NCBI GenBank assembly: GCA_020343875.1
Contig: CP070811.1
Span: forward strand, 4,426,420-4,459,931
Length of the DNA stretch: 33,512 nucleotides
Direction of reading: 5' to 3'
From: Anaerolineales bacterium
Lineage (GTDB): Bacteria; Chloroflexota; Anaerolineae; 4572-78; NAK82
Shown: positions 1-24,771 of the stretch, piece after piece
Layout of the letters: every line of letters starts with the position of its first letter
Position numbering within the stretch: position 1 is the stretch's first letter
Program-made: the position numbers and the translations under genes
Notes under the pieces: model-generated
Told to the model about the DNA's origin: nothing
What the model saw: the letters and a program-made list of their open reading frames with translations, nothing else
Database searches by the model: none

Positions 1-1869
1 ATGCGGGCCATCAGCGAGACGGGCAGTTACCCGTGGCGCATGGAAATCGTCCCCGATGCCATCCGCGGCAAGTTTTCGGCCATTACCGGTATCACCACCA
101 CCGTGGCCAGCATTATCGTGGCGCTGGGTGCCGGCTATGTCATTGATGCCGGCCAGAGTCTGCGGCGTTTTATGCTACTCATCACCGTTGGCGTGGCCTG
201 TGGGTTGGTTTCAGTCCTGTTATTTGCGCGCGTGCCAGGCGAAGACCGGGCCAGGCTGCAGCTGGCCAACACCAGGCATTGGGCAGGCATGCGTCAGGCG
301 CTTGAGGACCGGGCCTTTCTCTTGTTTCTGCTCATTCTGGCATTGGCTACCATCGGTGGACAGTCCATCATCAGCTCCTTCTTACCCCTTTTCATGAAGG
401 AGCAGGTTGGCCTCACCGAAGGGGTCATCGTGCTGCTGAGTATTGGCACCCACATCGGCGCGTTGTTCAGCTCGTATTTTTGGGGATGGGCAGCCGACCG
501 CTACAGCAGCAGGCCAGTCATGCAGGTCAGCCTGGTGCTGATGCTGCTGCTCCCGCCTTTTTGGCTGCTGTTACCCAGGCACGACCCGTCCAGCACAGCC
601 CTGGCCATGGCCATTTCTTTTGTGGCGGGTATTGCTTCACTAGCCTGGCAGGTTAGCTGGACCCGCTACTTGTATGTGAACGCTATTCCTACCCACAACC
701 ATCCTGCTTATCTGTCGTTGTACTTTGCTTGGATCAGCCTGGTGACGGGAATAGGACCCCTGCTGGCGGGCCAGTTACTGATGGGTTCGGCTGGCATCCG
801 GGCTCGTCAACTGGGTGTCGTCCACATAGATGCCTATACACCCCTGTTCGTGCTCAGCTTAGCCCTACTGGCCGCCAGCATGGTGTTGATTCCCAAACTC
901 AGAACAGAGAGTAACATCACCTTCAGGCGTTTTGCGGGCATGTTCCTGCGGGGCAACCCCGTGCGGGCCATGCGCTTGCTGATCCAGTACAATCAGGCGG
1001 GGGACGAAATGACGCGGGTGATGGCAACCGAGCAGATGGGTGATACGCATACCTTGCTGACCAGCGATGAACTCATCCAGGCCTTAAGTGATCCAAGTTA
1101 CAGTGTACGTCACGAGGCTATTCACTCCATCGGCCGCATGCCGGCTGCGCCGGAGCTGGTCAAGGCTCTGGTGAAGGTGCTGCAGGGGCCAGAATCAGAG
1201 TTGGGTATGGCCACGGCGAGGGCCCTGGGGCGTCTGGGCGACCGCAGCGCCTTGCCTGCCTTGCGCCGCTCGTTGCACTCACAGTATGACCTGATCGCGG
1301 CAGAAAGTGCCAGGGCACTCGGGCAACTGGATGATGCCCACAGTATCCCGGATTTAAAAGAGAAGATGCACGCCGAACCCAACATGCAGCTAAAAGTGGC
1401 CTACGCAGCGGCGTTGGGTAAACTTCGGGCCGCGGAAGTCATTCCGGACCTGTTTCAGTTGCTGGCTGAGGCCAAGACTGAAGCGGTCCGGGTAGAGCTT
1501 GGCCTGGCCATTGCACGCATAGCGGGGGATGAGAGATACTACTTGCAGCGGTGGCGGGCTTTCCGCAGTGATTTCGACACGGCCGCCGCTCAGGCGGTGC
1601 TGGCCATGCAGAAACCGGCTCGAAGAGCGGGGTTCAGTGAACTGGACCCAGTTTTGGAAGCCGGTGCCAAGAGCTTTGGAGAACACGACCTAGCGGCGGG
1701 TGTTGCCTTCTTGCGACAGGTGCTGGAGGCCATGGCGGCTGTCGAAGAGGACGGGACACTCAAGGAAACCATGGGGCGCTGTAACCAGGCTCTGGCGCAT
1801 GGGGGCCATACGCGGTTGGATCTGATATTGCTCTCTTTGCACGTGCTGGATGTGGCCTGGAATAGCTAA
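1..1869 (+). CDS. MFS transporter fused to C-terminal HEAT repeats (5' truncated by window edge)
   Basis: Integral-membrane major facilitator protein of unknown substrate with a soluble C-terminal repeat domain. The reading frame is open to the first base, and the sequence begins inside the MFS fold near a VPDAIRGKFSAITG loop of the kind that follows TM4, so the ATG at base 1 is probably internal. About eight membrane segments are visible between residues 20 and 300 instead of twelve. Residues about 335-530 hold roughly five helical HEAT/PBS-lyase-type repeats, for example VRHEAIHSIGRM, MATARALGRLGDRSALPALR and AAESARALGQLDDAHSIPDL. HEAT domains usually bind proteins, so the tail may dock a regulator or enzyme at the membrane (inference). 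It converges with the transposase gene, with a palindrome between them. The MFS and repeat assignments are firm; substrate and true start are not knowable here. Confidence 0.85.
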   Translation: MRAISETGSYPWRMEIVPDAIRGKFSAITGITTTVASIIVALGAGYVIDAGQSLRRFMLLITVGVACGLVSVLLFARVPGEDRARLQLANTRHWAGMRQALEDRAFLLFLLILALATIGGQSIISSFLPLFMKEQVGLTEGVIVLLSIGTHIGALFSSYFWGWAADRYSSRPVMQVSLVLMLLLPPFWLLLPRHDPSSTALAMAISFVAGIASLAWQVSWTRYLYVNAIPTHNHPAYLSLYFAWISLVTGIGPLLAGQLLMGSAGIRARQLGVVHIDAYTPLFVLSLALLAASMVLIPKLRTESNITFRRFAGMFLRGNPVRAMRLLIQYNQAGDEMTRVMATEQMGDTHTLLTSDELIQALSDPSYSVRHEAIHSIGRMPAAPELVKALVKVLQGPESELGMATARALGRLGDRSALPALRRSLHSQYDLIAAESARALGQLDDAHSIPDLKEKMHAEPNMQLKVAYAAALGKLRAAEVIPDLFQLLAEAKTEAVRVELGLAIARIAGDERYYLQRWRAFRSDFDTAAAQAVLAMQKPARRAGFSELDPVLEAGAKSFGEHDLAAGVAFLRQVLEAMAAVEEDGTLKETMGRCNQALAHGGHTRLDLILLSLHVLDVAWNS

Positions 1870-1880
1870 GACCGAACCTA

Positions 1881-1913
1881 AGACTTCAAAAGTCTCCAAG
1901 ACTTTTGAAGTCT
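1881..1913. repeat. 33-bp palindrome, copy 1 (REP-like, RAYT-associated)
   Basis: A perfect 15-bp stem around a 3-nt loop. Each arm (AGACTTCAAAAGTCT and its complement) is itself a 6-bp mini-hairpin. It lies between the convergent MFS and transposase genes and contains the transposase stop codon at 1886-1888. An exact reverse-complement copy lies at 8367-8399. Weaker pairing extends outward to about 1868-1926. It could also act as a terminator for both convergent genes, although no T-run follows on either side. Confidence 0.85.
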
Positions 1914-2476
1914 AGGTCTGGGTCTTGGTCTCTGGCGAACTGTTGATGCAGGTGAGCGAAGTTTTCCCGACCACCAAACCACTCAAGTACCGAATTGCGT
2001 TCGAGTTCGGTCGAGCTGGACCCGGCTAGAGCATTGTAAGAGCTGAATCTCCAGTCTCCGAAACAGGTACACAAGCCGGCAGCAACCGGATTAGCGTGGA
2101 TATAGCAAACCAGCCGGATGAGATAGTCCTCTTTCCCAATTTCCTTGCGCTTGAATTTGTACTGAAACAGACTGCCGGTGCGGTTATATCGCTTGTTGAA
2201 ACTCTTCGCATAGGAAATGAAGAAATCCTTAAAGGCTTTTGACACAGGAGATAGCGCACCGGTAGCCGGTTCAACAATCTCTTGAGAGGATTTCACCCTG
2301 ATCAGGAAATGAAAATGACCGGGCATTAGACAATAGGCATAGGTTTCAACGTGCGGGTGCACATAGCGCCGGTATTTTTGCAGAAAGTAGTGGTAGTTTT
2401 CCTCCGAACGGAAGATGATTTCGCGGTTATTGCCCCGGTTGAAGATGTGGTAGTACTTGCCCGGTTGCAATGACAT
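1886..2476 (-). CDS. REP-associated tyrosine transposase (RAYT, Y1/HUH family)
   Basis: Single-strand DNA endonuclease/transposase of the IS200/IS605-related TnpA-REP family; relatives cut and join DNA at palindromic REP sequences. The 196-residue length is normal. The N-terminal YYHIFNRGNNR strand, the HUH motif H54-F55-H56 in MPGHFHFLIR, the helix with SYAKSFNKRYNRTGSLFQ (candidate nucleophile Tyr89) and the YIHANPVAAGL motif are all typical. The ATG at 2476 directly abuts a GGAGG, so the TTG two codons later (2470), six bases from that GGAGG, is a likely true start. The last residues, LDFKSLGDF, are encoded by the palindrome itself. The gene sits just after the hoxU-like stop codon. It appears intact. 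Confidence 0.9.
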   Translation of the reverse strand: MSLQPGKYYHIFNRGNNREIIFRSEENYHYFLQKYRRYVHPHVETYAYCLMPGHFHFLIRVKSSQEIVEPATGALSPVSKAFKDFFISYAKSFNKRYNRTGSLFQYKFKRKEIGKEDYLIRLVCYIHANPVAAGLCTCFGDWRFSSYNALAGSSSTELERNSVLEWFGGRENFAHLHQQFARDQDPDLDFKSLGDF

Positions 2477-2488
2477 CCTCCAAAGAGC

Positions 2489-2503
2489 GGACTTTTGAAG
2501 CCT
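2489..2503. repeat. Degenerate half-copy of the RAYT palindrome
   Basis: GGACTTTTGAAGCCT differs at two positions from the AGACTTTTGAAGTCT arm of the 33-bp palindrome. It lies immediately upstream of the transposase gene and overlaps the last codon of the hoxU-like gene, so the transposase is bracketed by one full and one half palindrome. Confidence 0.6.
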
Positions 2504-3275
2504 AACGCAAGGCGTGAAAGGTCGCCTCGCGGATCACCTCCAATTGAGCGGCTGCTGCCTTGCGGCGACAGGCGGGGCACAGGCCCCACAGGTGCTGGCT
2601 GGCCTCCACATGCTCGCGCAAAAAGGCCATCGGTTCTGGAGCATAAGGCTGGCCGCAGCTCGGGCAGGGCTCCAGCGGCACGCGCGTATTCCAGGTGTGC
2701 AATATCCGCTGGCCATCCACGTCCTCGATCTTCACGGCGTCGGTGGGACACACCGCCGCACACGCGCCACAGCCGATGCAAGCCTCAGCCTGCAGGTGGA
2801 AGGGGGGCCCCACCTGGCGCTCCGGCCCGCGCCCGATGAAGCCGATGGCCGCCGCACCTACCGCGTCTCGACAGATGCGCACGCACAAACCGCATAGGAC
2901 ACACAATTCATCGGCTTTCGTACTGGCGGGGAAACGCGTTTCGGTCACGCCTGCCTCCGCGGCCATGGCCCGGATCACATTCCAGGTCGGACAGCGGGCC
3001 AGCAAGAACTCAAGCACGATCTTGCGCACGGCGGTCGCGCGTGGCCCCTGCGTCTCGATCACCATACCTTCAGCGGCTGGGTACGCGCAAGCAGCGATCG
3101 TGTCCGGCTTGGGCGAAACGACATCCACCAGGCACAGGCGACAAGCACCGTATGGCGGCAAACCCTCCCAGTAACACAGGGTAGGCAGATGCACCCCGGC
3201 CTGGCGAATAGCTTGCAGGACCGTCGCCCCCTCCGGCACGGTAAGCGTCTGACCGTCAACCACAATCGTCGGCAT
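2502..3275 (-). CDS. HoxU-like iron-sulfur subunit of an NAD(P) diaphorase
   Basis: Electron-wiring subunit homologous to HoxU and the NuoG N-terminus; cytoplasmic. Numbered from the upstream ATG at 3287, the first 80 residues form a plant-type [2Fe-2S] domain (C38, C49, C52, C67). A bacterial-ferredoxin domain with two [4Fe-4S] clusters follows (C129/132/135/139 and C170/173/176/180). The usual His/Cys-ligated NuoG cluster motif between them is absent. A C-terminal tail adds two CxxC pairs (C208/211 and C237/240) that look like an extra metal knuckle. The chosen start is the ATG at 3275, preceded by GGAGG at five bases. It is the last gene of the CODH operon, 25 bp after the NuoF-like gene. 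HoxU normally serves a NiFe hydrogenase; none is present here. Confidence 0.85.
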   Translation of the reverse strand: MPTIVVDGQTLTVPEGATVLQAIRQAGVHLPTLCYWEGLPPYGACRLCLVDVVSPKPDTIAACAYPAAEGMVIETQGPRATAVRKIVLEFLLARCPTWNVIRAMAAEAGVTETRFPASTKADELCVLCGLCVRICRDAVGAAAIGFIGRGPERQVGPPFHLQAEACIGCGACAAVCPTDAVKIEDVDGQRILHTWNTRVPLEPCPSCGQPYAPEPMAFLREHVEASQHLWGLCPACRRKAAAAQLEVIREATFHALR

Positions 3276-3300
3276 CTGAACCTCCATTGCGTTTCACATT

Positions 3301-5034
3301 TCACGCCCCCACCGGACACTTCCCAGCCGGGCAGCGGTGCTCAATCACATGAGCCTCGTACTCGTCACGGAAGTAGCGCAACGTGGAGAGAGCTGGGTTG
3401 GGCGCGGTCTGCCCCAGTCCGCACAGCGACCCGGCTTTGACCGCCTGGCCCACTTCTTCCATCAGGGCCAGATCATCCGGGGTGCCCTGGCCCTGCGTAA
3501 TGCGGGTCAGGATCGCCCGCAGGTGGCCTGTTCCTTCCCGGCAGGCGGTGCACTTGCCGCAGGACTCTACGGTGGTAAAGTCGAGAAAGTAGCGCGCCAC
3601 ATCTACCATGCAGGCGCTTTCGTCCAACACGACCATCCCCCCTGAGCCCATTATCGAACCGGCGGACGTCATTTCTTCGTACGTGATCCGCATATCAAAC
3701 AGCCGGGCTGGCAAACAGCCACCGGATGGGCCGCCGGTCTGCACCGCTTTAATCGCTCTACCGTTGCCACTCCCACCCCCAATTCCTTCCAGCAGATCAT
3801 TTAAGGTCATGCCCAGGGGAACTTCGACCAGGCCCGTGTTGGCAATCTGGCCCACCAGGGAAAAGACGACGGTGCCGGTGTTGCCTGGAGCACCTACAGC
3901 GGCATACCAGTCTCCACCGCGGGCCATGATGACCGGTACCGTGGAGAAGGTCTTGACGTTATTGATGACGGTCGGGCGGCCCCAAAGGCCGGCCACCGCC
4001 GGGTACGGCGGTTTAGGGCGCGGCTCGCCCGACCCCCCTTCGATGGAAGAGATCATGGCCGTCTCTTCGCCGCACACAAACGCGCCTGCACCCCGCACCA
4101 GGTCCAGCCTGAAGTTGAACCCGGAGCCCAGGATGTTCTCGCCCAGCAGCCCGTGTGCCTCAGCCTGGGCCAGTGCGTTTGTCAGGCGCTCGACAGCCAG
4201 CGGATACTCATCGCGGACGTAGGCATAGCCTTGATGGGCGCCGATGGCATATGCGCCGATAATCACTCCCTCAATCACGCTGTGTGGATCGCTTTCGAGC
4301 ACGGTACGATCCATGTACGCACCCGGGTCACCTTCGTCGCCATTACAGATGACATATTTCGTCTCGCCTGGCACGTCGCGAGCCACCTGCCACTTGCGCC
4401 CGGCAGAAAAGCCTCCCCCACCCCGTCCACGCAGTCCCGAACGGGTCACCTCATCAATCACCTGTTGTGGCGTCATCTCTGAGAGCACGCCAGCCAGGGC
4501 CCTATAGCCGCCGCGCGCGACGTATTCCTCGCAGCTGGCAGGGTCAACAAAACCGCAGTTTCGCAACACGATCTTGCGCTGGCTGGCGAAGAAGGGTTGC
4601 TGGCTGTAGGCCGGCACCCCGCTTAGCTCGGGCAAGCGGGAGAAGCGCTCCACCCGGTCTTCTACCAGGGACTCTTCCTGGTCGATAACGGCCCAGGCCC
4701 GGTCAACCGGAAGTGTGCCCGTTTGTGCCAGGTGGTCCACCAGGGCACGAGCCCGCGGGCGCGTCATCTGGGTATAGATGACCCGGCCCTGACCGGGGAG
4801 GCGCACATCCACCAGCGGCTCTTGCTGGCAGAAACCGATGCAGCCGGTACCGACCAGGACCGCGTCCAACTCGCGTTGCTTGATCCGCTGTGACAGTGCC
4901 TCATAGACCGCGTCGGCGCCAGCCGCCAGGCCGCAGGTGGCCATACCTACCGTGATCTTGATGCGATCAGGGTACAGGCTGGCCCGGCCCGCAGCATGCA
5001 GGGGCTCCAAATCGGCAGGCATTTTGCTCCTCAT
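3301..5034 (-). CDS. NuoF/HoxF/HndC-like NAD(P)H-binding flavoprotein subunit
   Basis: The flavin- and nucleotide-binding subunit that exchanges electrons with NAD(P)H. Residues 25-110 are a thioredoxin-like domain (C34, C65, C69). The NADH/FMN core has the glycine-rich GLRGRGGGGFSAGRKW at about 200-215, CNGDEGDPGAYMDR at 230-243 and GAGAFVCGEETA at 315-326. The [4Fe-4S] ligands are C492, C495, C498 and C538. The protein stops after RCPAGKCPVGA, exactly where many relatives continue into a further 2[4Fe-4S] ferredoxin domain, so that tail is missing. The ATG at 5034 is used; an ATG at 5022 with GAGGAG four bases upstream is an alternative. It lies between the NuoE-like and HoxU-like genes, which supports a three-subunit diaphorase. 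Confidence 0.92.
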   Translation of the reverse strand: MRSKMPADLEPLHAAGRASLYPDRIKITVGMATCGLAAGADAVYEALSQRIKQRELDAVLVGTGCIGFCQQEPLVDVRLPGQGRVIYTQMTRPRARALVDHLAQTGTLPVDRAWAVIDQEESLVEDRVERFSRLPELSGVPAYSQQPFFASQRKIVLRNCGFVDPASCEEYVARGGYRALAGVLSEMTPQQVIDEVTRSGLRGRGGGGFSAGRKWQVARDVPGETKYVICNGDEGDPGAYMDRTVLESDPHSVIEGVIIGAYAIGAHQGYAYVRDEYPLAVERLTNALAQAEAHGLLGENILGSGFNFRLDLVRGAGAFVCGEETAMISSIEGGSGEPRPKPPYPAVAGLWGRPTVINNVKTFSTVPVIMARGGDWYAAVGAPGNTGTVVFSLVGQIANTGLVEVPLGMTLNDLLEGIGGGSGNGRAIKAVQTGGPSGGCLPARLFDMRITYEEMTSAGSIMGSGGMVVLDESACMVDVARYFLDFTTVESCGKCTACREGTGHLRAILTRITQGQGTPDDLALMEEVGQAVKAGSLCGLGQTAPNPALSTLRYFRDEYEAHVIEHRCPAGKCPVGA

Positions 5035-5054
5035 CGATTTTCACCTGCTTCCCA

Positions 5055-5492
5055 TTACCGATACTTGTCCAGGATGATGCCCAGGTCACTGTGCGTGAGG
5101 CGACCAAACGTCTCATTATCAACGCGCACTACCGGCGCCAAGCCACATGAGCCGACGCAGCGCACCCGCTTGAGGGTGAAGGTCATGTCTTCAGTGGTCT
5201 GGTCGGGGGCGACGCCCAGCTCGGCTTGCAGGTGACCCATCAGCGCGGGCGCACCTTTGACATAGCAGGCGGTACCTTCGCATACCTGCAGCTTGTGCCG
5301 TCCAACTGGGGTGAAGCTGAACGAGGCGTAGAAGGTAGCCGCGCTGAACACCTGGCTCAGCGGCACGCCGAGTTCGATGGCGACCTGGCGCACTTCATCT
5401 TGCGGAAGATATCCGTAGCGCATGTTGACTTGGTGCAGCGCGGCCAACACACCCCCGGCATCAGGTTGACGATATTGTTGGGATGGAAGCAT
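5055..5492 (-). CDS. NuoE/HoxE-like [2Fe-2S] subunit
   Basis: Thioredoxin-fold subunit that carries one [2Fe-2S] cluster next to NuoF. In the longer 152-residue reading the ligands are C78 and C83 (VCEGTACYVKG) and C119 and C123 (RCVGSCGLAP), the family pattern C-x4-C and C-x3-C. The N-terminal helical part has the usual LPQDEVRQVAIELGVPLSQV. The start at 5492 is chosen because GGAGG lies five bases before it; in-frame ATGs at 5504 and 5513 are less well placed. It is followed after 20 bp by the NuoF-like gene and preceded by cooS, with a 122-bp gap that shows no feature. It is expected to form a heterotrimer with the next two products. Confidence 0.9.
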   Translation of the reverse strand: MLPSQQYRQPDAGGVLAALHQVNMRYGYLPQDEVRQVAIELGVPLSQVFSAATFYASFSFTPVGRHKLQVCEGTACYVKGAPALMGHLQAELGVAPDQTTEDMTFTLKRVRCVGSCGLAPVVRVDNETFGRLTHSDLGIILDKYR

Positions 5493-5614
5493 AGCGACCT
5501 CCATTCTGCTCACCCGTGCAGGAACTCATCACATACCCGGAGTGATGTTAAGAGCGACTTCCTTCAATTCGGCCCGCATCCTTGCGTGTGCCGGTTATGG
5601 GTACGAATTGTTGT

Positions 5615-7513
5615 CTAAATCCCCAGGCCCTTTCTGCGCTCCTTGAGGGCAGCCACCATCTTGGCCACAGCGGCCTGTGGATCGGGCTCGACGATGAAGT
5701 AGCCGCCCAGCAAGTCTTTGGCAGCCTTGGTCAGCACCTCGACCACCACAGGACTGCCCGTGACGGGCGGGACCACGCCCACGTGAGTAGGCAGGCCCAT
5801 AGCCACAGCCCAGGTACCGATGGAGACCGCCTTCTCCATGGCCGCCTCGGGAGCGGTGGCTACCACCGGCAACTGGCTGATGTCCACTCCTAACTTGTTG
5901 GCCAGCGCCACCGCGATGCCGGCGGCCCGGGTGTTATCCACGCACGAGCCGGTGTGCAGCGCCAACGGTAGTGGACCGTCCAGCCCAGCCGCCTGCCCCA
6001 ACGCTGTGAGCACCGCTTTTAAGCCATCCCCGGCGTACTTCTGGGTGGCAGCTGGGGTCAGCAGACCGTGCCGGGCGAAGCTGCCCGCGGCACAGCCGGT
6101 GCACAGAATCAATACGTTCTCAGCCGCCAAGGCCTTGACCAGCTCCACAAAGGTCTTGTCCTGAGTAACCTTGACATCGTTGCAGCCTGCGAACAGGCAC
6201 ACGCCCAGGATATTGCCGTTGACGATGTTGTCAATCAATGGTTTGAGCGGATCATCGGGGTTGACCAAGGCCAACACGTTGACAATGGCCTCCGCCGACA
6301 GGCCAGCCAGGGCATCATTGGTTACGGGGGGGATGTTGACCCGAGTCGGGTCTCGTTTTTTGAAAGCTTCGATTGCCAACCGCAAGATCTCACGCGCCTT
6401 TTCGCCCGCGTTGTGCTCTTCGAATTGGACGTGGGTAGCCCCCGTGATCTTGGCAATCGGCATGGTGGTAATGATGGCGGTGTGATACCGGGCCGCAACG
6501 TCAGGCAGGCTGGGCATAATACACTGATAGTCCACCACCGCTGCGTCCAGGGCACCCGTGACGATGGCCAGTTCTTGCGAAAGCGAGTTGGTCGCGGTCG
6601 GGATGCCATGCCGCATCATCACTTCGTGGCCGGTGCAGCAGATGCCCACCAAGTTGATGCCTTCTGAGGCACCTGCAGCCTGGGCTTCCTGCTCCATTCC
6701 CATCGCCTCGGCGACAATGATTTCACTCAGCACCGGGTTGTGACCGTGAACGGCGATGTTCACCGCGTTTTCCTTGAGTGTACCCAGGTTAGCGCTTGCC
6801 ATCACCGGTGTCGGCGTACCGAATAAGATGTCTGAGAGATCGGTCGCCAGGTACATGCCCGTGTAGTCGCCAATGGCACACTTGATGGCGCCCAGTAGGA
6901 TATTGACCGCATCGGCGTCGACGCCGTTCGTGGTGCGGTGCATCACTTCGGCGACTGCAGAATCGAGGCCGGGTGGGATGAGGCCCAGCTCCTCAAACTT
7001 GGTCATGCGGCCGGGGGTGACGGTCGTCTTGAGCCAAACCGGCGTCTCTTCCCGCTCCGAGAATTCATCCAGCGCCAATTGGGCCAGTTCGCCTGCCAGT
7101 TCCTGATCGCTCTTGCCATTGCGGGCGATACCCACCCGATCCAGCACAGCATAGAACTTAGCCTGGTCCTTGATGCCATAATCGGTTGCTTCGCCCCGGC
7201 TGAACTTGAGCAGGGTGTGGGCCAGGTGCTTGGCGTGAGCGGAGTGAGAGGCAGTGCCCCCGGCCACACTCCGGGCCAAGCCACGAGCTACCATCACATC
7301 GGCGGAGGCGCCGCAGATACCATTCTTCGGGCCAGTCACCTCGAAGGGATCAATCCGGCACGGCCCCTGCAAACAGTGGCGGCAGCACAGGCCAGTCTCG
7401 CCAAAGCCGCACTGCGGTAGTTGGGTCTCGTAGCGATCCCAGGCTGTGGTCACACCGGCAGCCTGAGCGGTCTTGAGCAGCATTACAGAATCGGGGCTGA
7501 TTGAGCGTTCCAT
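5615..7513 (-). CDS. cooS: Anaerobic Ni-Fe carbon monoxide dehydrogenase catalytic subunit
   Basis: Oxidises CO with water to CO2, or the reverse, passing electrons to a CooF-type ferredoxin; homodimeric cytoplasmic enzyme. The length of 632 residues is typical. D-cluster ligands C35 and C43, B-cluster ligands C44, C47, C52 and C67, and the histidine ladder H90/H93/H96/H99 are present. The Ni-containing C-cluster ligands are all present: H256, C293 (GICCTG), C331, C444, C474 and C524, with the catalytic lysine K561. It is therefore predicted to be fully functional rather than a hybrid-cluster protein. It follows cooF by 3 bp and leads into the diaphorase genes. No cooC, cooJ, cooT or acetyl-CoA synthase gene is visible, so nickel loading and any link to acetyl-CoA synthesis must come from elsewhere. 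Confidence 0.97.
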   Translation of the reverse strand: MERSISPDSVMLLKTAQAAGVTTAWDRYETQLPQCGFGETGLCCRHCLQGPCRIDPFEVTGPKNGICGASADVMVARGLARSVAGGTASHSAHAKHLAHTLLKFSRGEATDYGIKDQAKFYAVLDRVGIARNGKSDQELAGELAQLALDEFSEREETPVWLKTTVTPGRMTKFEELGLIPPGLDSAVAEVMHRTTNGVDADAVNILLGAIKCAIGDYTGMYLATDLSDILFGTPTPVMASANLGTLKENAVNIAVHGHNPVLSEIIVAEAMGMEQEAQAAGASEGINLVGICCTGHEVMMRHGIPTATNSLSQELAIVTGALDAAVVDYQCIMPSLPDVAARYHTAIITTMPIAKITGATHVQFEEHNAGEKAREILRLAIEAFKKRDPTRVNIPPVTNDALAGLSAEAIVNVLALVNPDDPLKPLIDNIVNGNILGVCLFAGCNDVKVTQDKTFVELVKALAAENVLILCTGCAAGSFARHGLLTPAATQKYAGDGLKAVLTALGQAAGLDGPLPLALHTGSCVDNTRAAGIAVALANKLGVDISQLPVVATAPEAAMEKAVSIGTWAVAMGLPTHVGVVPPVTGSPVVVEVLTKAAKDLLGGYFIVEPDPQAAVAKMVAALKERRKGLGI

Positions 7514-7516
7514 GGC

Positions 7517-8128
7517 TTATTCCTCCTGTGCTTGAACCATTGTCGCCTCGCGCACGGCCCGGGCCTGAGACAAGACGAAACTGGCACGTACTCTGGACTG
7601 GTGAGCGAACTGGTCGCCTTCCGCGAAGACAATCGCCCCGGTCGGGCAAGCTGCAACGCAGGCAGGCACATCCCGGTCGGGGCACAGGTCACATTTGAGC
7701 GCCATCACCCGGCTGCCTGTGGCCTTCAGGCTACCTGTGGCCTTCAGGCCACCTGTGGCCTTCAGGCCATCGACGGCTGGCGCTCGGGCGATCATGCCAA
7801 AGGGGCACATCATCACGCACATGCCGCAGGCAATGCACTCGTGCTTTCCGCCCACATTGGTCACCACGTCATCCGGCGTGCGATGCATGGCCTGGGGAAT
7901 ACAGGCGGCAATGCACGGGGCCGGATCGCAGTGGCGACAGGTCATTGGCATTTTGAGGATCTCGAATGGGGAAGTTATGGCTGCCTCGACGTATAGCCGG
8001 GAATGAGGCGGAGGTAATTCCAGCATGGCCCCCAGCAAGTTCTTGCTCTGGGAGTGCTCGACGGCGCAGGCCAGCTCGCACGTCTTGCAGCCGGTGCATA
8101 GCTCCGGACGGACAAACAACCGTTTCAT
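7517..8128 (-). CDS. cooF: CooF-like 4x[4Fe-4S] ferredoxin, CODH electron acceptor
   Basis: Polyferredoxin expected to take electrons from the CO dehydrogenase and hand them to the downstream diaphorase. Sixteen cysteines form four clusters: 11/14/17/21, 64/67/72/76, 98/101/104/108 and 146/149/157/161. Between the third and fourth cluster motifs, residues 121-139 consist of three near-identical six-residue units (GLKATG/SLKATG) encoded by an 18-bp tandem repeat, which lengthens this loop. A strong GAGGAGGTG ribosome-binding site lies five bases before the ATG. First gene of the operon. It resembles HycB/DmsB-type subunits as well, but adjacency to cooS fixes the role. Confidence 0.92.
   Translation of the reverse strand: MKRLFVRPELCTGCKTCELACAVEHSQSKNLLGAMLELPPPHSRLYVEAAITSPFEILKMPMTCRHCDPAPCIAACIPQAMHRTPDDVVTNVGGKHECIACGMCVMMCPFGMIARAPAVDGLKATGGLKATGSLKATGSRVMALKCDLCPDRDVPACVAACPTGAIVFAEGDQFAHQSRVRASFVLSQARAVREATMVQAQEE
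7715..7768. repeat. 18-bp tandem repeat, three units, inside cooF
   Basis: Three consecutive units containing CCTGTGGCCTTCAGG with an 18-bp period. The unit length is a multiple of three, so it adds six residues per copy without breaking the frame. Copy number could vary between strains by slippage. Confidence 0.9.
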
Positions 8129-8234
8129 AGGCCACCTCCTCGTGAACTATATGGAACTATATAGATGACAGTTATTTATGCACGCGCCGGTCTATCGGAC
8201 TGGGGATAGAATACTTGAGGCAAAGTTGCCATCT

Positions 8235-8254
8235 AGCCTCAACAGGTTGAGGCT
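8235..8254. promoter_or_regulatory. Hairpin in the leader of the cooF-cooS operon
   Basis: Perfect 8-bp inverted repeat AGCCTCAA / TTGAGGCT around a 4-nt loop, between the predicted start site and the cooF ribosome-binding site. It may shape the leader RNA or bind a regulator. No ligand class is recognisable. Confidence 0.4.
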
Positions 8255-8283
8255 GGGGGTCAGGCATGACAACTCATACCCGT

Positions 8284-8330
8284 GTAGGAACTACATCCTA
8301 CAGTTTATCACGCCCATGGCGACAAGTCAA
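8284..8330 (-). promoter_or_regulatory. Sigma-70-type promoter of the cooF-cooS operon with a dyad at the start site
   Basis: On the minus strand TTGACT (8330-8325) and TAAACT (8307-8302) are separated by 17 bp. Directly after the -10 box lies the dyad GTAGGA-N6-TCCTAC (8284-8301), which would cover the transcription start and is a plausible operator. The leader to cooF is about 165 bases. A CooA/RcoM-type CO-sensor gene is not in the window. Confidence 0.6.
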
Positions 8331-8361
8331 GAGGGAATTTTTTGCATGCACCAAACAAAAG

Positions 8362-8399
8362 AAAAAAGACTTCAAAAGTCTTGGAGACTTTTGAAGTCT
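8362..8399 (-). terminator. Rho-independent terminator of the sugar-acid operon, made of palindrome copy 2
   Basis: The 33-bp palindrome (8367-8399, 15-bp stem, 3-nt loop) is the exact reverse complement of the copy at 1881-1913. On the minus strand it starts 16 bp after the KDPG aldolase stop codon and is followed by five Ts (8366-8362), the classic layout of an intrinsic terminator. It separates this operon from the CODH promoter that begins 32 bp further on. Confidence 0.75.
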
Positions 8400-8415
8400 A
8401 GTAGGCTGACCGCCG

Positions 8416-9054
8416 CTATCCTCGCACCTGGCGCACGACAGACACGGCTTCCTGGGCTAACTGGGTGATCTCATCAAACTTGCCGGCGCTGATCAGGCTG
8501 GCCTCGGCCAGCCAGCTGCCCCCGCAGCAATGGACGCTGGGGTGGGCCAGGTAATTCGCCAGGTTAGCCAGGCTGATGCCTCCGGTGGGAATGAACTTCA
8601 CGCCGCCATAAGGAGCCGCGATGGCCTTGAGAGTCTTGAGGCCACCCATCGCCTCAGCCGGGAAGAACTTGAGTACCGTCAATCCCTTGTCCAAGGCCAT
8701 CTCAATCTCGGTGGGCGTGGCCACCCCCGGGGTGACCGGTATCTGCCTGGCCAGACACCAATCCACCACCTTGGGATTGAAGCCGGGGGAAACGATAAAC
8801 CCGGCCCCTGCCGAGGCTGCCCGCTCAGCCTGGTCCACCGAGAGGACCGTCCCCGCACCCAGCACGATGTCTGGCAGATTGGAGGAGATCCGACGGATGG
8901 CCTCCTCGGCTGCCGCGGTGCGGAAGGTGATCTCAGCACACGGCAGCCCGCCGGCCAACAATGCACTGCCCAGGCTGACCGCATCCTCGGCCCGCTCAAT
9001 CTTGACCACTGGCACCACGCCTAAGCCCTTAAGAGTATCAAGAATTTCTTGCAT
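8416..9054 (-). CDS. eda: 2-keto-3-deoxy-6-phosphogluconate aldolase
   Basis: Class I aldolase that splits KDPG into pyruvate and glyceraldehyde 3-phosphate, the last step of hexuronate and Entner-Doudoroff breakdown. At 212 residues it has the family length. The Schiff-base lysine is K129 in VLKFFPAE, with E41 in EITFRT as the general acid/base. GAGTVLS, the SPGFNP and TPGVATP loops and the phosphate-binding PTGGI motif are all present. Last gene of the operon, 132 bp after the KDG kinase whose product it uses. Some family members also cleave KHG (4-hydroxy-2-oxoglutarate) or 6-phospho-galactonate analogues, so substrate specificity could be broader. Confidence 0.95.
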   Translation of the reverse strand: MQEILDTLKGLGVVPVVKIERAEDAVSLGSALLAGGLPCAEITFRTAAAEEAIRRISSNLPDIVLGAGTVLSVDQAERAASAGAGFIVSPGFNPKVVDWCLARQIPVTPGVATPTEIEMALDKGLTVLKFFPAEAMGGLKTLKAIAAPYGGVKFIPTGGISLANLANYLAHPSVHCCGGSWLAEASLISAGKFDEITQLAQEAVSVVRQVRG

Positions 9055-9186
9055 AGCGTACCTCCCTGGTTACGGTATTGGTTGTGGAGGCACAGCAGCT
9101 CCCGGCCCGGAGCATCAGGTTGGCAATGCCCGGCCGGAAGCGCGGGCCCCGTCTCAACCGCACTGGTCTCTTGAAAAGCAGTTCCC

Positions 9187-10224
9187 TCAACGTGACACCC
9201 GGCCTGACACATCGCCGCCCATCAGCTTCTCGACCTCGGCCACGCTGACCATGTTGAAATCGCCGAAGATCGAGTGTTTGAGGCACGACGCAGCCACAGC
9301 AAAGTTGAGTGCCTGCTGCCGATTCTGGCCGTAAGTGCGCAGGCCATAGATCAGGCCAGCCATAAAGGAGTCTCCACCGCCGACTCGGTCCACAATGTGC
9401 GTGATGTCGTAAGTGGGCCCCGTGTAGAAGTCTCCTTGATCCCATAACACGCCAGACCAGGTGTTGTGGCTGGCCGAGATTGAGCCGCGCAGGGTAATGG
9501 CGATCGTCTTCAAGTTAGGAAAACGTTGGGCCAGCTCGGCGCATACAAAGCGGTACTTGTCGGCATCTACCTTGCCAGCGGTCACGTCGGTCTGGGGAGC
9601 TCTGATGCCGAAGACCTTGTCGGCGTCTTCCTCGTTGCCGATGGCCACATCGCAATAGCCTACCAGCTCGGGCATCACCTGGGCTGGTGTCTTGCCCCAC
9701 TTCCAGAGCTTCTTACGATAATTCAGGTCGCACGACACGCTCAAGCCCATGCGCCGGGCCTCCTGGATGGCTTCCAGGCACACCTCCGCCGTCCCGGCCG
9801 AGATAGCAGGGGTGATGCCTGTCCAGTGGAACCAGTCGGCGTCGGCGAAGACCTGCTGCCAGTCAATCATGCCCGGCTGGATGGTGGCGATGGCTGAGTT
9901 GGCCCGGTCGTAGATCACCTTGCTGCCACGCTGCACAGCGCCCATCTCCAGGAAGTAGATGCCCAGCCGGTCGCCGCCGCGCACGATTTTGTCCACGCCC
10001 ACCCCATACTGGCGCAGGAACTGGATGCAGGCGTCGCCCAGGTCATTTTGGGGCAGGCGGGTGACGTAGTCCACCGGCAGGCCGAAAACCGCCAGCGCCA
10101 CGGCTACGTTGGCCTCCCCGCCGCCGTAGATGACGTCAAATGAGCGGGCTTGCCCAAAGCGCAAAAAGCCCGGCGGCGACAGGCGCATCATGATCTCACC
10201 AAAGGCTATTATCTTCTTGGACAT
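9187..10224 (-). CDS. kdgK: 2-keto-3-deoxygluconate kinase (PfkB family)
   Basis: Ribokinase-fold sugar kinase that phosphorylates 2-keto-3-deoxygluconate to KDPG. The N-terminal GEIMMRLSPPG and GGGEANVAVAL strands and the PfkB signature with catalytic D285 (VDRVGGGDSFMAG) are clear. The 345-residue length and the ...LNYRKKLWKW motif resemble KdgK-type enzymes rather than fructokinases. Pairing with eda supports the call. It is preceded by a 196-bp intergenic region with repeated sequence motifs, which may give it a secondary promoter within the long cluster. Confidence 0.88.
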   Translation of the reverse strand: MSKKIIAFGEIMMRLSPPGFLRFGQARSFDVIYGGGEANVAVALAVFGLPVDYVTRLPQNDLGDACIQFLRQYGVGVDKIVRGGDRLGIYFLEMGAVQRGSKVIYDRANSAIATIQPGMIDWQQVFADADWFHWTGITPAISAGTAEVCLEAIQEARRMGLSVSCDLNYRKKLWKWGKTPAQVMPELVGYCDVAIGNEEDADKVFGIRAPQTDVTAGKVDADKYRFVCAELAQRFPNLKTIAITLRGSISASHNTWSGVLWDQGDFYTGPTYDITHIVDRVGGGDSFMAGLIYGLRTYGQNRQQALNFAVAASCLKHSIFGDFNMVSVAEVEKLMGGDVSGRVSR

Positions 10225-10239
10225 TCGGGTTGCCTCCTT

Positions 10240-10336
10240 AAGTGCTTACCAAGAAATAACTTGGCATTCTTATAGACATGTCAGGCCCGACCGCTGTCTC
10301 AAAGCGGGAAGTTGTTTATTGACAAGTGCTTACTTG
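10240..10336. promoter_or_regulatory. Repeated AAGTGCTTAC motifs upstream of kdgK
   Basis: AAGTGCTTAC occurs twice in the same orientation, at 10240-10249 and 10324-10333. The second lies in the dyad CAAGT-N4-ACTTG (10323-10336), and the first is followed by CCAAG-N6-CTTGG (10249-10264). This is the only sizeable gap inside the downstream half of the operon, so these are candidate operator sites for kdgK-eda. I could not place a convincing -35/-10 pair. Confidence 0.35.
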
Positions 10337-10420
10337 CCTCCGCTTCAATGTGGTTGAGGCTCAGGTTCGATCCTTGTGCGGAGCAAGCGGTGGGCTGTTC
10401 TCCACCGCGAGGGGCCAGGT

Positions 10421-11458
10421 CTAACGGTCAGCCTCTGGCTCCGCCCGCTGATACGTATAGGAAGTGATATTCTCGACTTCGGGGTTGACCACCCACGGCG
10501 GCCAACGGCCATTGTACACATGAATGGCGATCTGGCAACCAGAGCGGTACAGATCGGCCACGCTGTCCTCCGAATTGGCCCCCACGTGAGGGGTAAAGGT
10601 CACGTTGTCAAACTCACGCAGCGGCGAGTCGAGGGGCAGTGGCTCCTGCTCCAACACGTCCAAGCCGGCTCCCCACACTTTGCCGGACCGCAATGCCTGG
10701 ATCAGGGCCGTCTCATCAATGACCGGCCCCCGGCTGGTGTTGACGATGAACACGCCGTCTTTCATGAGGTCGAATTCCCTGCTGCCCAGCAGGTGATGCG
10801 TTTCCGCGGTCAGCGGGCAGTGCACGGAGATAAAATCGGAGCGCTGGAGTAGCTCATCCAGGCTGACCTGCTGTACTCCATAGGGGGATATGGTCTCGGA
10901 GTTGACATAAGGATCATGCGTTAGCAGGGTCATGCCGAAGCCGCGAACCCGCTCGGCCAGAGCGCGGCCGATGCGCCCAAAAGCCAGAATGCCCAAAGTG
11001 CAACCTTTCATACGCCGGGCCGGGCGTGCGCCTGTGCGGTCCCAGCGCCCGGCTCGGATCCAGCGATCCTGGCGTGCGATGTGTCTGACACCGCTCATCA
11101 GCAAGGCCAGGGCGTGGTCGGCCACGTCGTCTACGCAGTACGTGGGCGTATTGCAGACCAGAATGCCTTGCCGGGTAGCGGCCTCTACGTCCACATTGTC
11201 ATAGCCGGTGCCCAGTCGCACGATACACTGGCATCCTTCCAGTTTTTGAATGACGTCTTGAGTGAGCAAGGGTCGAACGGACTGTTGCATTACTACAGGG
11301 GCGGTCCGTGCTGCGTCCAAAGCGGCTTCGGGTGTGCGATGTTGTCCTACCGTCCACGTGATGCCCTGACGAACCAGCTCCTGGCCTACCCAGTCTGGCG
11401 GGGTGAAGAGATCCTCATCGTAGTCTACCAATACAGCTTCAAAGGATTGATTTGTCAT
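10421..11458 (-). CDS. D-isomer-specific 2-hydroxyacid dehydrogenase (CtBP/SerA-like)
   Basis: NAD(P)-dependent reductase or dehydrogenase acting on a 2-keto/2-hydroxy acid. The Rossmann motif GILAFGRIGRALAERVRGFG (about 156-175) and the catalytic triad R243 (NTSRGPVIDE), E272 (EQEPLP) and H291 (TPHVGA) are all present. At 345 residues it lacks the ACT domain of long SerA proteins, so serine biosynthesis is unlikely. In this context it may interconvert a sugar-acid or a C3-C4 hydroxyacid (inference). It lies 12 bp after the uxuB-like SDR and so is co-transcribed. Exact substrate unknown. Confidence 0.85.
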   Translation of the reverse strand: MTNQSFEAVLVDYDEDLFTPPDWVGQELVRQGITWTVGQHRTPEAALDAARTAPVVMQQSVRPLLTQDVIQKLEGCQCIVRLGTGYDNVDVEAATRQGILVCNTPTYCVDDVADHALALLMSGVRHIARQDRWIRAGRWDRTGARPARRMKGCTLGILAFGRIGRALAERVRGFGMTLLTHDPYVNSETISPYGVQQVSLDELLQRSDFISVHCPLTAETHHLLGSREFDLMKDGVFIVNTSRGPVIDETALIQALRSGKVWGAGLDVLEQEPLPLDSPLREFDNVTFTPHVGANSEDSVADLYRSGCQIAIHVYNGRWPPWVVNPEVENITSYTYQRAEPEADR

Positions 11459-11470
11459 GAATAACCTCTA

Positions 11471-12295
11471 TTACACACCACTGAAGACGGAGAAACCACC
11501 ATCGATTGCGATGGTTGCTCCGTGCACGAAGGTGGCAACCTCTGAGAGAACCAAAAAAGCCGGGCCGATCAAGTCTTCAGGCAATCCGAAGCGGCCCATG
11601 GGCGTGTGGGCGATGATGCTTTGCCCCCGCTGGGTGGGTTGACCGCTCTCCTCGTCAAGCAGTAGAAACCTGTTCTGCTCGGTCAGAAAGAAGCCTGGCA
11701 TCAGTGCATTGACACGGATACGAGGCGAATACTCCTGGCACAAATGTACGGCGAGCCATTGGGTGAAGTTGACGACAGCCGCTTTGGCCGCTGAATAGGC
11801 GACACTTCTGGTCAGGGGGCGGTCGGCCGCCATGGAGGCAATGTTCAGGATACACCCGTGATCCCGTTCCACCATGTGGCGGCCGAAAACCTGGCAGGCA
11901 AAGAAAGTCCCCAGGAAATTCAGGTCGAAAACCCAGCGGACTGCGTCTTCAGGCAGGTCAAAGAAGGGTAAATCTGGGCTGGTTGTGGCTTCCTTCTTGG
12001 CGCCACCTGCGCCGTTTATCAGAATATCGACTTTGCCAAAGGTTTCAACGATTGTTTGAGCCGAGGTGATCAGGCTTTTCTTATCAAGCACATCTGCCTG
12101 GAGTGCCGTAGCCTGGCCTGCCCTGGCCCGGATTTCGGCAACCACTTTCTCAGCAGCCGGCAGACTGATGTCCAAGACGGCCACGCTGGCTCCCTGCAGC
12201 GCCAGTGCCCTGGCCATCGCACCACACAGCACTCCGCCTCCGCCGGTGATAACTGCCACTTGCCCGCTAAAATCAAAAGGTCGATCAAGGTCCAT
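11471..12295 (-). CDS. SDR dehydrogenase, D-mannonate oxidoreductase (UxuB)-like
   Basis: Classical short-chain dehydrogenase of 274 residues with the nucleotide-binding loop ITGGGGVLCGAMA (about 16-28), NGAGG at 94-98 and catalytic S154, Y167 and K171 (AYSAAK). The long NGAGGAKKEATTSPD insertion and the C-terminal loop LTEQNRFLLLDEESG resemble the SDR-type fructuronate reductases (D-mannonate oxidoreductases) found in hexuronate operons of Gram-positive and Thermotoga-type bacteria, which are unrelated to E. coli UxuB. That would link fructuronate to mannonate upstream of KDG. The mannonate dehydratase required next is not in the window, so the exact sugar acid stays open. Confidence 0.75.
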   Translation of the reverse strand: MDLDRPFDFSGQVAVITGGGGVLCGAMARALALQGASVAVLDISLPAAEKVVAEIRARAGQATALQADVLDKKSLITSAQTIVETFGKVDILINGAGGAKKEATTSPDLPFFDLPEDAVRWVFDLNFLGTFFACQVFGRHMVERDHGCILNIASMAADRPLTRSVAYSAAKAAVVNFTQWLAVHLCQEYSPRIRVNALMPGFFLTEQNRFLLLDEESGQPTQRGQSIIAHTPMGRFGLPEDLIGPAFLVLSEVATFVHGATIAIDGGFSVFSGV

Positions 12296-12379
12296 TACCT
12301 AACTCCGTTTAACTCCCGAATTGGGGTCCGGCCAATCTTTCTGGGGACACAGAGTCAGACACACCGGCGGGTGCGGGTG

Positions 12380-13126
12380 TCAGTCCATCAAGTAGCCGCC
12401 ATTAACGTCCAGGATTTCGCCCGTGATGAAGTTTGCGGCGTCAGAAGCGAGAAAAGCCACCGCTTCGGCCACGTCCTGGGGTTTTCCCAATCTCTTCAGG
12501 GGAATCGACTCGATAATCTGGCGGCGTTTTTCTTCCGGCCACTCCTGGCTCATCTCCGTCTCGATGGCGTGCGGGGCCACGGCGTTCACGTTGATATTAT
12601 AAGGCGCCAGCTCGCGCGCCAAAGACATGGTGAAGGTGTTGATGGCTCCCTTGGAGGTACCATAGGACGGGGCAGAAGCCAGGTCCCCCACTTTGCCGGC
12701 TATGGAGGAGATATTGATGATTTTGCCTCCTCCCTGGGCAATCATGAGGGGGATCACCTCCCGGGCACAGTTGAACGTCCCTCCCAGGTTTACATCCAGC
12801 ACCCTTTCCCAGTCTTCGAGCCTGTGCTCGAGGAAAGTGCCCCGCCGAATGATCCCGGCGTTGTTGACCAGAATGTCAACCTTCCCCAAGAAGGAGACTG
12901 TTTGGCTGACCAACTGTTTTACGGCTTCGGGTTGGGAGACATCGACCTGGATAGCTGTGGCCTTCCGGCCCAATCTTTCAATCTCCTGGGCCACCCGTTG
13001 GGCACGTTCCAGATCTACATCGGCAACCACGACGTCCGCCCCCTCCCGGGCCAGCGTCAGGGCGATGGCTTCCCCTATACCCCGGGCGGCACCGGTAATC
13101 AGAGCTACCTTGCCCTCGAATCTCAT
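12380..13126 (-). CDS. SDR dehydrogenase, FabG/KduD-like
   Basis: Short-chain dehydrogenase of 248 residues. Motifs are TGAARGIG (11-18), NNAG (88-91), S141, Y155 and K159 (SYGTSKG), and the C-terminal VNGGYLMD. The general form matches FabG, glucose dehydrogenase and 2-deoxy-D-gluconate/KduD enzymes, which cannot be told apart by eye. Its place between the permease genes and the uxuB-like SDR argues for sugar or sugar-acid oxidation rather than fatty-acid synthesis. It starts 19 bp after the permease stop codon and is therefore translated from the same message. Confidence 0.82.
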   Translation of the reverse strand: MRFEGKVALITGAARGIGEAIALTLAREGADVVVADVDLERAQRVAQEIERLGRKATAIQVDVSQPEAVKQLVSQTVSFLGKVDILVNNAGIIRRGTFLEHRLEDWERVLDVNLGGTFNCAREVIPLMIAQGGGKIINISSIAGKVGDLASAPSYGTSKGAINTFTMSLARELAPYNINVNAVAPHAIETEMSQEWPEEKRRQIIESIPLKRLGKPQDVAEAVAFLASDAANFITGEILDVNGGYLMD

Positions 13127-13145
13127 GCTTTCCCAAGCCTCCTTT

Positions 13146-13979
13146 TCACTCCTTGACAGCTCCAGCCGTCAGACCCTCGACCAGATAATTTTGCAACAGC
13201 AAGTAGAGAATCAAGGGCGGTAATGCCCCAATCATGGAACCAGCCATCAATTGAGGCCAGATGATGCGGAACTGGGTTACCAGGCGGGTGAGCCCCAGGG
13301 TGACGGTGGTCATTTTTTCGCCGCTGGTCAGAACCAACACCCACAACAGATCTCCCCAGGCCAGCAAGAAGGCGAATATGATTGTGGCTACCATGCCCGG
13401 CGCAATAAGCGGCAGAATCACTTTCAAATAGGCGCCCAAGGGGGTGCACCCGTCGATCAAGGCTGCGTCGTCCAGTTCTTCGGGGACAGAATCAATGAAT
13501 CCTTTGAGCATCCAGGTGCTGAACGGCAGCGTGATGGCAGTGAAAGCCAGAATCAGCCCCGGGTAGGTGTTGTACAGTTCGACGGTGGAGAGCATTTTGA
13601 AGTAGGGTCCCACCAGAAGCACGCCCGGCAGCATCTGGCTGGATAGGATGATCCCAATTAACGTGGCTCGGCCTCGAAAACTGAAGCGGGAGAAGCCATA
13701 ACCGGCAAATGATCCGATCGCTGTTGAAAGCAACGCAGTGCCCAAAGAGATGATGGTGCTGTTCAGGAACCAAATGGGGAAGTTACCCCATAGCAGAATC
13801 TGAATGTAGGCCTCCAGCGTCGGCTCTTTGGGCCAAAGGGTAGGTGGGATGGTCACCGCTTCCTTGTCACTCTTCAGAGAGGTAAAGATCATCCACAGAA
13901 AGGGGGTGATCGTGTACAAGAGGACCAGGCCCAGGACCAGGTAGGCGAGAATCAGACCGGGTCGCAGTCTTCTCTTCAT
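13146..13979 (-). CDS. Carbohydrate ABC transporter permease, CUT1 MalG-like
   Basis: Inner-membrane permease of 277 residues with about six transmembrane helices. The binding-protein-dependent transport signature EELDDAALIDGCTPLGAYLK-type EAA loop (about residues 185-205) docks an ATPase. Its start overlaps the stop of the preceding MalF-like gene by four bases (ATGA), showing translational coupling. It works with that permease and the LysM-tagged binding protein. No CUT1 ATPase gene is found in the cluster. Confidence 0.93.
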   Translation of the reverse strand: MKRRLRPGLILAYLVLGLVLLYTITPFLWMIFTSLKSDKEAVTIPPTLWPKEPTLEAYIQILLWGNFPIWFLNSTIISLGTALLSTAIGSFAGYGFSRFSFRGRATLIGIILSSQMLPGVLLVGPYFKMLSTVELYNTYPGLILAFTAITLPFSTWMLKGFIDSVPEELDDAALIDGCTPLGAYLKVILPLIAPGMVATIIFAFLLAWGDLLWVLVLTSGEKMTTVTLGLTRLVTQFRIIWPQLMAGSMIGALPPLILYLLLQNYLVEGLTAGAVKE

Positions 13980-14863
13980 GACAGTCTCCGGACCATAGCC
14001 CGCACATACGGCAGGCTGAGAAGAAGCATGATGATGGCCAGAACCACGGCCACGGCGGCCGCGTATTCAAAATTAAAGTATCTGAAGTACTGCTTGTAGA
14101 CGTAAAGAGAGAGGATCTCGGTCACATTGCCAGGCCCACCGGCCGTCATATTGAAAACCAGCCCAAAACGTCGAAACTGCCAGATAGTATCCAGGGCAAC
14201 GGAAATCAGGATCATGCCTCTCATGCTAGGAACGGTGATGAAGCGAAACTCTTGCACGGTTGAGGCGCCATCTACCTTGGCGGCTTCATATAGTTCGCGG
14301 GGGATGGCCTGCAATCCTGCTAACAGAATGAGCATGACAAAGGGATAGCCACGCCACACGTCGGCGAAGATGACACTGGGCAGGGCCAGATCGGAGTCCC
14401 CCAGCCACTCGATATGCTTATGAATGAGTCCCCAGTCAAAAAGCAACCGGTTGATGATACCTGCGGTAGGGTTGTACATGAAGCGCCAGATCAGGCCGGA
14501 AATTACGTCGGGCACCGTCCACGGAAGAATAGCTATCACCCTGAAGAGACGTTTGCCCCGGACCTGCGTGTTCAAGGCCAAGGCAATGATGAAGCCCACA
14601 ACGAGATGCAGCAGTACCGTACCAGCCACGAAGGTAAAGGTAACCACCAAAGAATTGCGGAAGCGCCCATCCCTGGGCAGCTTGGCGTAATTCTCAAGCG
14701 TCCAGCCCCCATCGGGCAGGCTGAAGCTGTTGATGATGGCCACGGCGATAGGAAAGCCCAGAACCACCAGTAGCACCAGGAGAGTGGGCAAGACGAACAG
14801 GAAGCCCTGGGCCAGGCGGAACGGGATATGGATTGACGGAGAGCGGGCACGAAGTGTGTTCAT
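13976..14863 (-). CDS. Carbohydrate ABC transporter permease, CUT1 MalF/UgpA-like
   Basis: Inner-membrane permease with about six transmembrane helices and the EAA loop PRELYEAAKVDGASTVQEF. The frame is open back to a GTG at 14920, but that start lies within the intercistronic hairpin. The ATG at 14863, which gives MNTLRARSPSIHIPFRL, is preferred and yields 295 residues, the usual size. No strong ribosome-binding site precedes it. The gene follows the binding-protein gene and overlaps the second permease by four bases. Confidence 0.9.
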   Translation of the reverse strand: MNTLRARSPSIHIPFRLAQGFLFVLPTLLVLLVVLGFPIAVAIINSFSLPDGGWTLENYAKLPRDGRFRNSLVVTFTFVAGTVLLHLVVGFIIALALNTQVRGKRLFRVIAILPWTVPDVISGLIWRFMYNPTAGIINRLLFDWGLIHKHIEWLGDSDLALPSVIFADVWRGYPFVMLILLAGLQAIPRELYEAAKVDGASTVQEFRFITVPSMRGMILISVALDTIWQFRRFGLVFNMTAGGPGNVTEILSLYVYKQYFRYFNFEYAAAVAVVLAIIMLLLSLPYVRAMVRRLS

Positions 14864-14889
14864 GGTCGAAGAATTGGGTTTGAGTTGTG

Positions 14890-14922
14890 AGGTGGAGGGC
14901 CGTTGGGCACAGCCCTCCACCT
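14890..14922 (-). promoter_or_regulatory. Intercistronic hairpin between binding-protein and permease genes
   Basis: An 11-bp perfect stem (AGGTGGAGGGC and its complement) with an 11-nt loop starts 17 bp after the binding-protein stop codon. No T-run follows on the minus strand. Such structures commonly protect the upstream binding-protein transcript and reduce expression of the permeases, as known for malE-malF. Confidence 0.6.
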
Positions 14923-14938
14923 TTCTAGGTTGGCGGTT

Positions 14939-17777: not shown

Positions 17778-17914
17778 TGTCTCTATCCTCCTTAGTTAAG
17801 GTGATATGGTCCAGTTTTCAGCCTCATCTTGAATTCGATTCTGTTCGCCTGCTCCCTCCTTTCCACGCCTCCTTCCTGAACGCGGCGATGAATGCGCACA
17901 GCACAGCGTCCGGC

Positions 17915-18934: not shown

Positions 18935-18942
18935 TCATTTGA

Positions 18943-20445: not shown

Positions 20446-20453
20446 GGGCCTCC

Positions 20454-24751: not shown

Positions 24752-24771
24752 GTAACCAGCGTTGTGTCACC

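Follow-up and report, generated by a model that had tools for sequence, protein, structure and literature searches.

The window analysed here, a 33,512-nucleotide stretch of the genome of an Anaerolineales bacterium (contig CP070811.1, positions 4,426,420 to 4,459,931), carries on its minus strand a 33-nt hairpin (8367–8399) directly behind eda, the gene for a KDPG/KHG aldolase. Judged from the form of the sequence, this hairpin probably derives from tnpA, a transposase gene of the RAYT type (repetitive extragenic palindrome-associated tyrosine transposase) in the same window, and now serves as an intrinsic terminator behind eda. The hairpin consists of a perfect 15-bp stem closed by a loop of 3 nt; read on the minus strand, the loop is CCA here and TGG in a second copy at 1881–1913, which includes the stop codon of tnpA. 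A repeat search of the window aligned the two stretches over 33 nt with 100% complementarity, loop included, confirming the exact reverse-complement copy of a transposase-side palindrome that a preliminary description of this DNA had reported. As both copies are palindromes of the form AGACTTCAAAAGTCT-NNN-AGACTTTTGAAGTCT, and hence self-complementary, the term "reverse complement copy" concerns the loop alone (TGG versus CCA), which by itself sets the direction of a copy.

The eda gene (8416–9054, minus strand; PF01081, TIGR01182) is the last of a co-directional run, and its stop codon at 8416 is followed by a 16-nt spacer (8400–8415), the stem, and, flush with the stem, the T-rich tail TTTTTCTTTTGTTT (8353–8366, minus strand). 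Read along the minus strand from 8366 to 8353 the tail is TTTTT-C-TTTT-G-TTT, with the last T of the stem extending the first run to six; the earlier placement of the palindrome 16 bp after eda, with a T-run next, is thereby borne out. Predicted folding of the RNA of a 71-nt strip gave −24.6 kcal/mol (z = −4.3, with none of 200 shuffles as good), and −19.3 kcal/mol for the bare hairpin. The site also heads the list of terminator-like sites between 7600 and 26200, with 15 pairs against six for the runner-up; the total of 13 such sites compares with 14.0 in shuffled sequence, so the remaining 12 are at noise level. The eda copy combines the features by which an intrinsic terminator is recognized in sequence, namely a stable hairpin, a flush T-run, a position downstream of a stop codon and the transcribed direction. 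No known RNA family in Rfam matched the window at the gathering score.

The gene to which the palindrome belongs, tnpA (1886–2476, minus strand), is a Y1_Tnp/RAYT-type gene whose last residues, DFKSLGDF, are encoded together with the stop codon by the hairpin at 1881–1913. Its 196-residue product scores 25.0 bits against Y1_Tnp (PF01797; Pfam cut-off 23) and 67.7 bits against the NCBIfam model NF047646 (REP_Tyr_transpos), below the curated cut-off of 80 bits. The HuH motif and the catalytic tyrosine are present (H54, H56 and Y125, invariant in alignment A1), and the protein motifs are GHFH, FQ and YIHANP, together with an SS motif. Immediately upstream of tnpA lies the half-site GGACTTTTGAAGCC (2489–2503), which reaches the stop codon of the 2502–3287 gene and, by comparison with the upstream hairpins of relatives described below, is probably a decayed upstream tnpA hairpin.

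The genome itself (5.35 Mb, one contig) contains four copies of the palindrome and no match to a reversed-pattern control, with up to three mismatches allowed outside the loop. The loop CCA/TGG is common to all four; the copy at 92148, near a stretch reading N, has one changed base beside the loop, and the copy at 3188094 is flanked by two open reading frames (ORFs) that are read divergently. A T-run is present beside one of the four, the eda copy, which speaks against a family-wide terminator role, and because the other three lack a T-tail, the tail is not part of the element. Another Y1 gene (96259) is found some 4 kb away from the copy at 92148, and its locus contains no copy of the eda-type hairpin. 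Separately, the genome holds a second palindrome family of the AGACTTTTGGGGTTT type (33–34 nt), with three copies at 1098961, 2065708 and 2520698 (loci L150, L151 and L152), none with a T-run and none adjoined by any of the three listed Y1 genes, and at 2977463 (L149) a decayed hairpin related to AGACTTCGGAAGTCT, the trace of another stem variant.

Outside the genome, the exact arms were found in seven stretches, spread over four genomes of other lineages: Saprospiraceae HLSAbin9, Chlorobi bacterium OLB5 (four contigs), Bacterium UASB270 and Ignavibacteria WB-IL-15. A tnpA of OLB5, 47% identical to that of the window, is flanked by the hairpin on either side, and on the Saprospiraceae contig the hairpin stands just before a tnpA. 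Matches with up to three mismatches occur in 5 of 400 genomes of the phylum, the present genome counted. Within the class, with the two central bases free and at most one mismatch, 44 of 298 genomes match, with up to 56 copies per genome and none for the control; relatives of tnpA (E ≤ 1e−15) are present in 89 of the 298 and both hairpin and tnpA in 28 (Fisher p = 5e−7, not corrected for kinship).

Individual tnpA genes were compared in 34 rows, which represent 33 different genes, one of them partial; 30 of the rows are loci returned by the tnpA search of the class. A 15-bp hairpin (≤2 mismatches) occurs inside tnpA or within 250 nt of it in 31 of the 34 rows, upstream in 24, inside in 19 and downstream in 20, counts that include a few hairpins that look unrelated to the family (e.g., L239, and the spurious-looking internal one of L014); the window tnpA has no internal hairpin. 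In the relatives, hairpin and tnpA are no more than about 180 nt apart. Stems vary by tnpA lineage (e.g., AGACTTCCGAAGTCT, AGACCTGACAGGTTT and AGCGCCTAACGCGCT), and the nearest relatives of the window tnpA, L218 and L220, have the stems AGACTACAAAAGTCT and AGAGTACAAAAGTCT, one and two bases different from the window stem. On the tree, two labeled stem groups require one change each, compared with a mean of 2.7 after shuffling (19 and 7 of 500 shuffles were as low), a comparison that draws on only nine labeled rows. Because stem sequence tracks tnpA lineage, we take the palindrome to be the element cognate to this tnpA rather than a motif of the host; the description of the eda feature as a TnpA-linked, dispersed hairpin is well supported. 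Among the class tnpA loci L216–L245, matching hairpins appear upstream, downstream and often in frame within the ORF, and here too the stems change by lineage.

The hairpin behind eda is best read as a solitary, non-autonomous copy belonging to the RAYT-type gene at 1886–2476. TnpA may have delivered a single-stranded copy to the site 16 nt past eda, where the stem, flush with the T-rich tail, would act as an intrinsic terminator for minus-strand transcripts passing eda, ahead of a promoter-like site before the carbon monoxide dehydrogenase (CODH) cluster. In the two eda orthologues nearest to that of the window, both distant (83% and 80% identity) and belonging to other families within the class, the next gene follows eda directly, without a hairpin or a T-run; the hairpin is therefore not an old part of eda. 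These two orthologues have different genes behind eda and so do not represent empty sites, and no empty site beside eda was found.

The behavior of the family as a whole was assessed on 148 distinct copies among the matches listed for the class genomes and the present genome; seven genomes rich in copies were scanned a second time, and the copies are therefore not independent. Each copy used had at least 20 nt of sequence on either side, and the loci of other lineages (L013–L019 and L028–L042) were left out. Genes around the copies were called with a home-made caller (codon log-odds, greedy), which makes the context counts approximate, and the T-tails were compared by a weighted score. By this score the T-tail of the eda copy ranks first among the 296 flanks. 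The copies occupy 59 tandem, 19 convergent and 16 divergent gaps, with 31 inside called ORFs and 23 at edges; the palindrome-free gaps of the same loci are 49 tandem, 8 convergent and 7 divergent. The 31 copies inside called ORFs are candidate in-frame insertions. Of the stop codons flanking a hairpin, 36 of 105 are no more than 20 nt away from it, compared with 15 of 106 start codons (p = 0.0007), a clustering that fits ordinary placement of REP-like (repetitive extragenic palindromic) elements; REP placement behind stops is reported for other species in PMC3733652.

No significant pattern of this kind is seen for T-tails. At least five T in eight positions, on either side, were found for 15 of the 148 copies, and in tandem gaps the sense side (5/59) compares with the antisense side at 3/59. 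Tails were not significantly commoner within 30 nt behind stops (3/39, compared with 12/257 for other flanks; p = 0.43), and among all sense flanks they were present in 9/105, compared with 6/191 for the others (p = 0.053). In a smaller, earlier set, 94 copies that also covered other lineages, the threshold of five T in eight was reached by 17 of 186 flanks, where 5.7 were expected from the same flanks 30–120 nt out. Any excess of T-tails in the family is at most weak, and may be real or due to AT-rich spacers. As most members lack a T-tail, the element has no general terminator role, and a family-wide function of this kind is not supported; the eda site would be an isolated capture at one locus, and recruitment of this sort is exceptional and not the role of the family. 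The proposal that a REP-like element had become an intrinsic terminator consequently holds up in part: at eda, a cognate RAYT-type hairpin with all the sequence features of a terminator is present, but the proposal does not extend to the family as a rule. Likewise, the preference of copies for sites after stop codons with a T-run, put forward earlier as a check, was recovered for the stops among the 148 copies, but not for the T-run, either there or in the present genome.

The same rarity of T-tails weighs against termination at eda itself, as do several other observations. One good tail among 148 copies could be chance, the eda copy having been singled out for precisely this feature, and only 5 of the 15 pairs of its stem are G-C. 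Moreover, an RNA 3′ end that coincides with a REP hairpin in E. coli may simply be stabilized by it; PMC13289151 describes these hairpins as stabilizing and not terminating. These points favor a different account, in which a selfish REP-like element inserted by chance beside a T-rich stretch and protects or blunts the 3′ end of the eda mRNA, with no useful stop to transcription; the lack of a significant link between tails and stops, and the REP-like clustering of tailless copies behind stops, are what it would lead one to expect. We regard it as rather unlikely, though a serious contender, because the eda copy unites the best T-tail of the 296 flanks with the right orientation, distance and stem, the combination on which recruitment as a terminator rests.

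Much less probable is the idea that the hairpins at 1881–1913 and 8367–8399 are the ends of a 6.5-kb module comprising tnpA and the CODH genes, which would make the eda-side copy primarily a boundary and only secondarily a terminator. Of just four copies in the 5.35-Mb genome, two do lie 6.5 kb apart, with tnpA inside one end, and the tnpA of relatives usually has a hairpin on each side. However, the half-site at 2489–2503 occupies the position of the relatives' upstream hairpin, and tnpA therefore probably had an upstream hairpin of its own; the relatives' hairpins keep much closer to tnpA than a module of this size would place them, and neither a second copy of the module nor an empty site was seen. 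An ordinary host terminator resembling the palindrome through convergence or chance, which the terminator form of the site might suggest and to which we attach almost no probability, is ruled out by the identity of all 33 bases, loop included, with the tnpA copy, and by four genomic copies against none for the reversed-pattern control. Two further identities were rejected. Single sites of the DNA-uptake type are ruled out, the half-site pattern having seven matches in the genome, all within the four paired copies, and REPs of the GTAG type are ruled out on the foot, since GT[AG]G occurs in 8 of 292 5′ flanks of 8 nt, where the background rate is 3.6%.

The proposed recruitment of a TnpA-linked hairpin as the eda terminator can be set against several known systems. 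The closest are REPs, or palindromic units, with their RAYTs (TnpA_REP), and REPtrons, in which a short dispersed palindrome is likewise linked to and flanks a Y1 HuH transposase gene, and the copies lie mostly between genes, often just behind stops, with some inside genes (PMC3733652 and PMC6006769). At 33 nt with a 15-bp stem the window hairpin is also within the 20–40 bp palindrome size of GTAG-type REPs. It differs in the missing GT[AG]G foot and in its abundance, four copies here and up to 56 in relatives, compared with the usual high abundance of REPs (PMC2817692). TnpA_REP subclass 2.4 (RAYT group 4) is described in PMC6006769 as having in-frame hairpins inside tnpA and as scattered over phyla; the present family is likewise scattered over phyla, and an internal hairpin occurs in 19 of the 34 tnpA rows. 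In contrast, the subclass motifs given there are NH[IFV]H, WQ and YIxNNP, where the window has GHFH, FQ and YIHANP, and the window family lacks the foot and the window tnpA the internal hairpin. Subclass 2.1 (TIRYT) shares the FQ, Y[IV]H.NP-like and SS motifs (Table 1 of PMC6006769), but the same paper gives it no nearby REP-like hairpins, which here are the rule, and an extra C-terminal domain resembling helix-turn-helix motifs, compared with the 196 residues of the window protein. By these descriptions, as far as the excerpted source goes, the combination of a missing foot with subclass 2.1-like motifs does not fit the published classes. We entertain, tentatively and as something we doubt more than believe, that this RAYT system has not yet been set apart in print: one with 15-bp stems, loops of 3 to 4 nt and no GTAG foot, with hairpins before, inside and behind tnpA, possibly with stems that are rewritten with each tnpA lineage, giving many different ones within a single bacterial class, and travel across phyla with the gene, and whose solo copies might be portable hairpins, now and then converted by the host into terminators, the eda site being an example. 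A text search with the hairpin arms as letters returned no related paper; most subscription journals lie outside that search.

A dispersed inverted repeat followed by a T-run forms a terminator in E. coli palindromic units and in inverted pairs of DNA uptake sequences. Reportedly, palindromic units of E. coli were linked to termination by Gilson in 1986, and Kingsford is said to have linked terminators to DNA uptake in 2007. The idea of REP-like palindromes serving as terminators is known, and the eda case is probably a further example; the inverted repeat and T-run are shared, and the difference is that here a single copy of a tnpA-linked hairpin is concerned, with no family-wide function. 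What the eda site offers is one clear example of a palindrome linked to a transposase and apparently recruited as an operon terminator, and as the genome holds only four copies, both insertion and effect are cleanly testable. In addition, the pairing of stem and tnpA lineage supplies ready natural hairpin–enzyme pairs for recognition studies.

The sugar-metabolism transcript that would end at the hairpin was earlier described as a 15-gene operon. There are indeed 15 co-directional genes on the minus strand between 8416 and 25563, from an IclR-type regulator to eda, with a promoter-like site (25624–25596, 11/12 consensus match) before the regulator gene; the gaps within the run reach 226 nt, so a single operon or transcript stays only plausible. 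On the far side of the hairpin, the promoter suggested for the CODH genes corresponds to a promoter-like site, TTGACT-17-TAAACT with TG (8302–8330, minus strand), that matches the consensus at 9 of 12 positions and has an extended −10 element. Several such sites occur in both ranges considered (4 observed versus 1.9 expected in 1500–9500, and 11 versus 5.8 in 7600–26200), and 8330–8302 is therefore no more than a candidate for the CODH cluster promoter. From its position, the eda hairpin could plausibly insulate this candidate promoter, which would hold only if terminator and promoter-like site both work.

The CODH cluster itself (2502–8128, minus strand) lies between the two hairpins. In the order of transcription it comprises genes for a 4Fe-4S protein (7517–8128), the CODH catalytic subunit (5615–7513), a 2Fe-2S thioredoxin-like protein (5055–5513), a Nuo51-like protein (3301–5034) and a Fer2_4/4Fe-4S protein (2502–3287), all on the minus strand. 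Inside the 4Fe-4S protein gene an 18-base unit is repeated in three tandem copies (7711–7767). Elsewhere in the window, at 29337–29597, two near-identical blocks about 150 bases apart are 88–89% alike.
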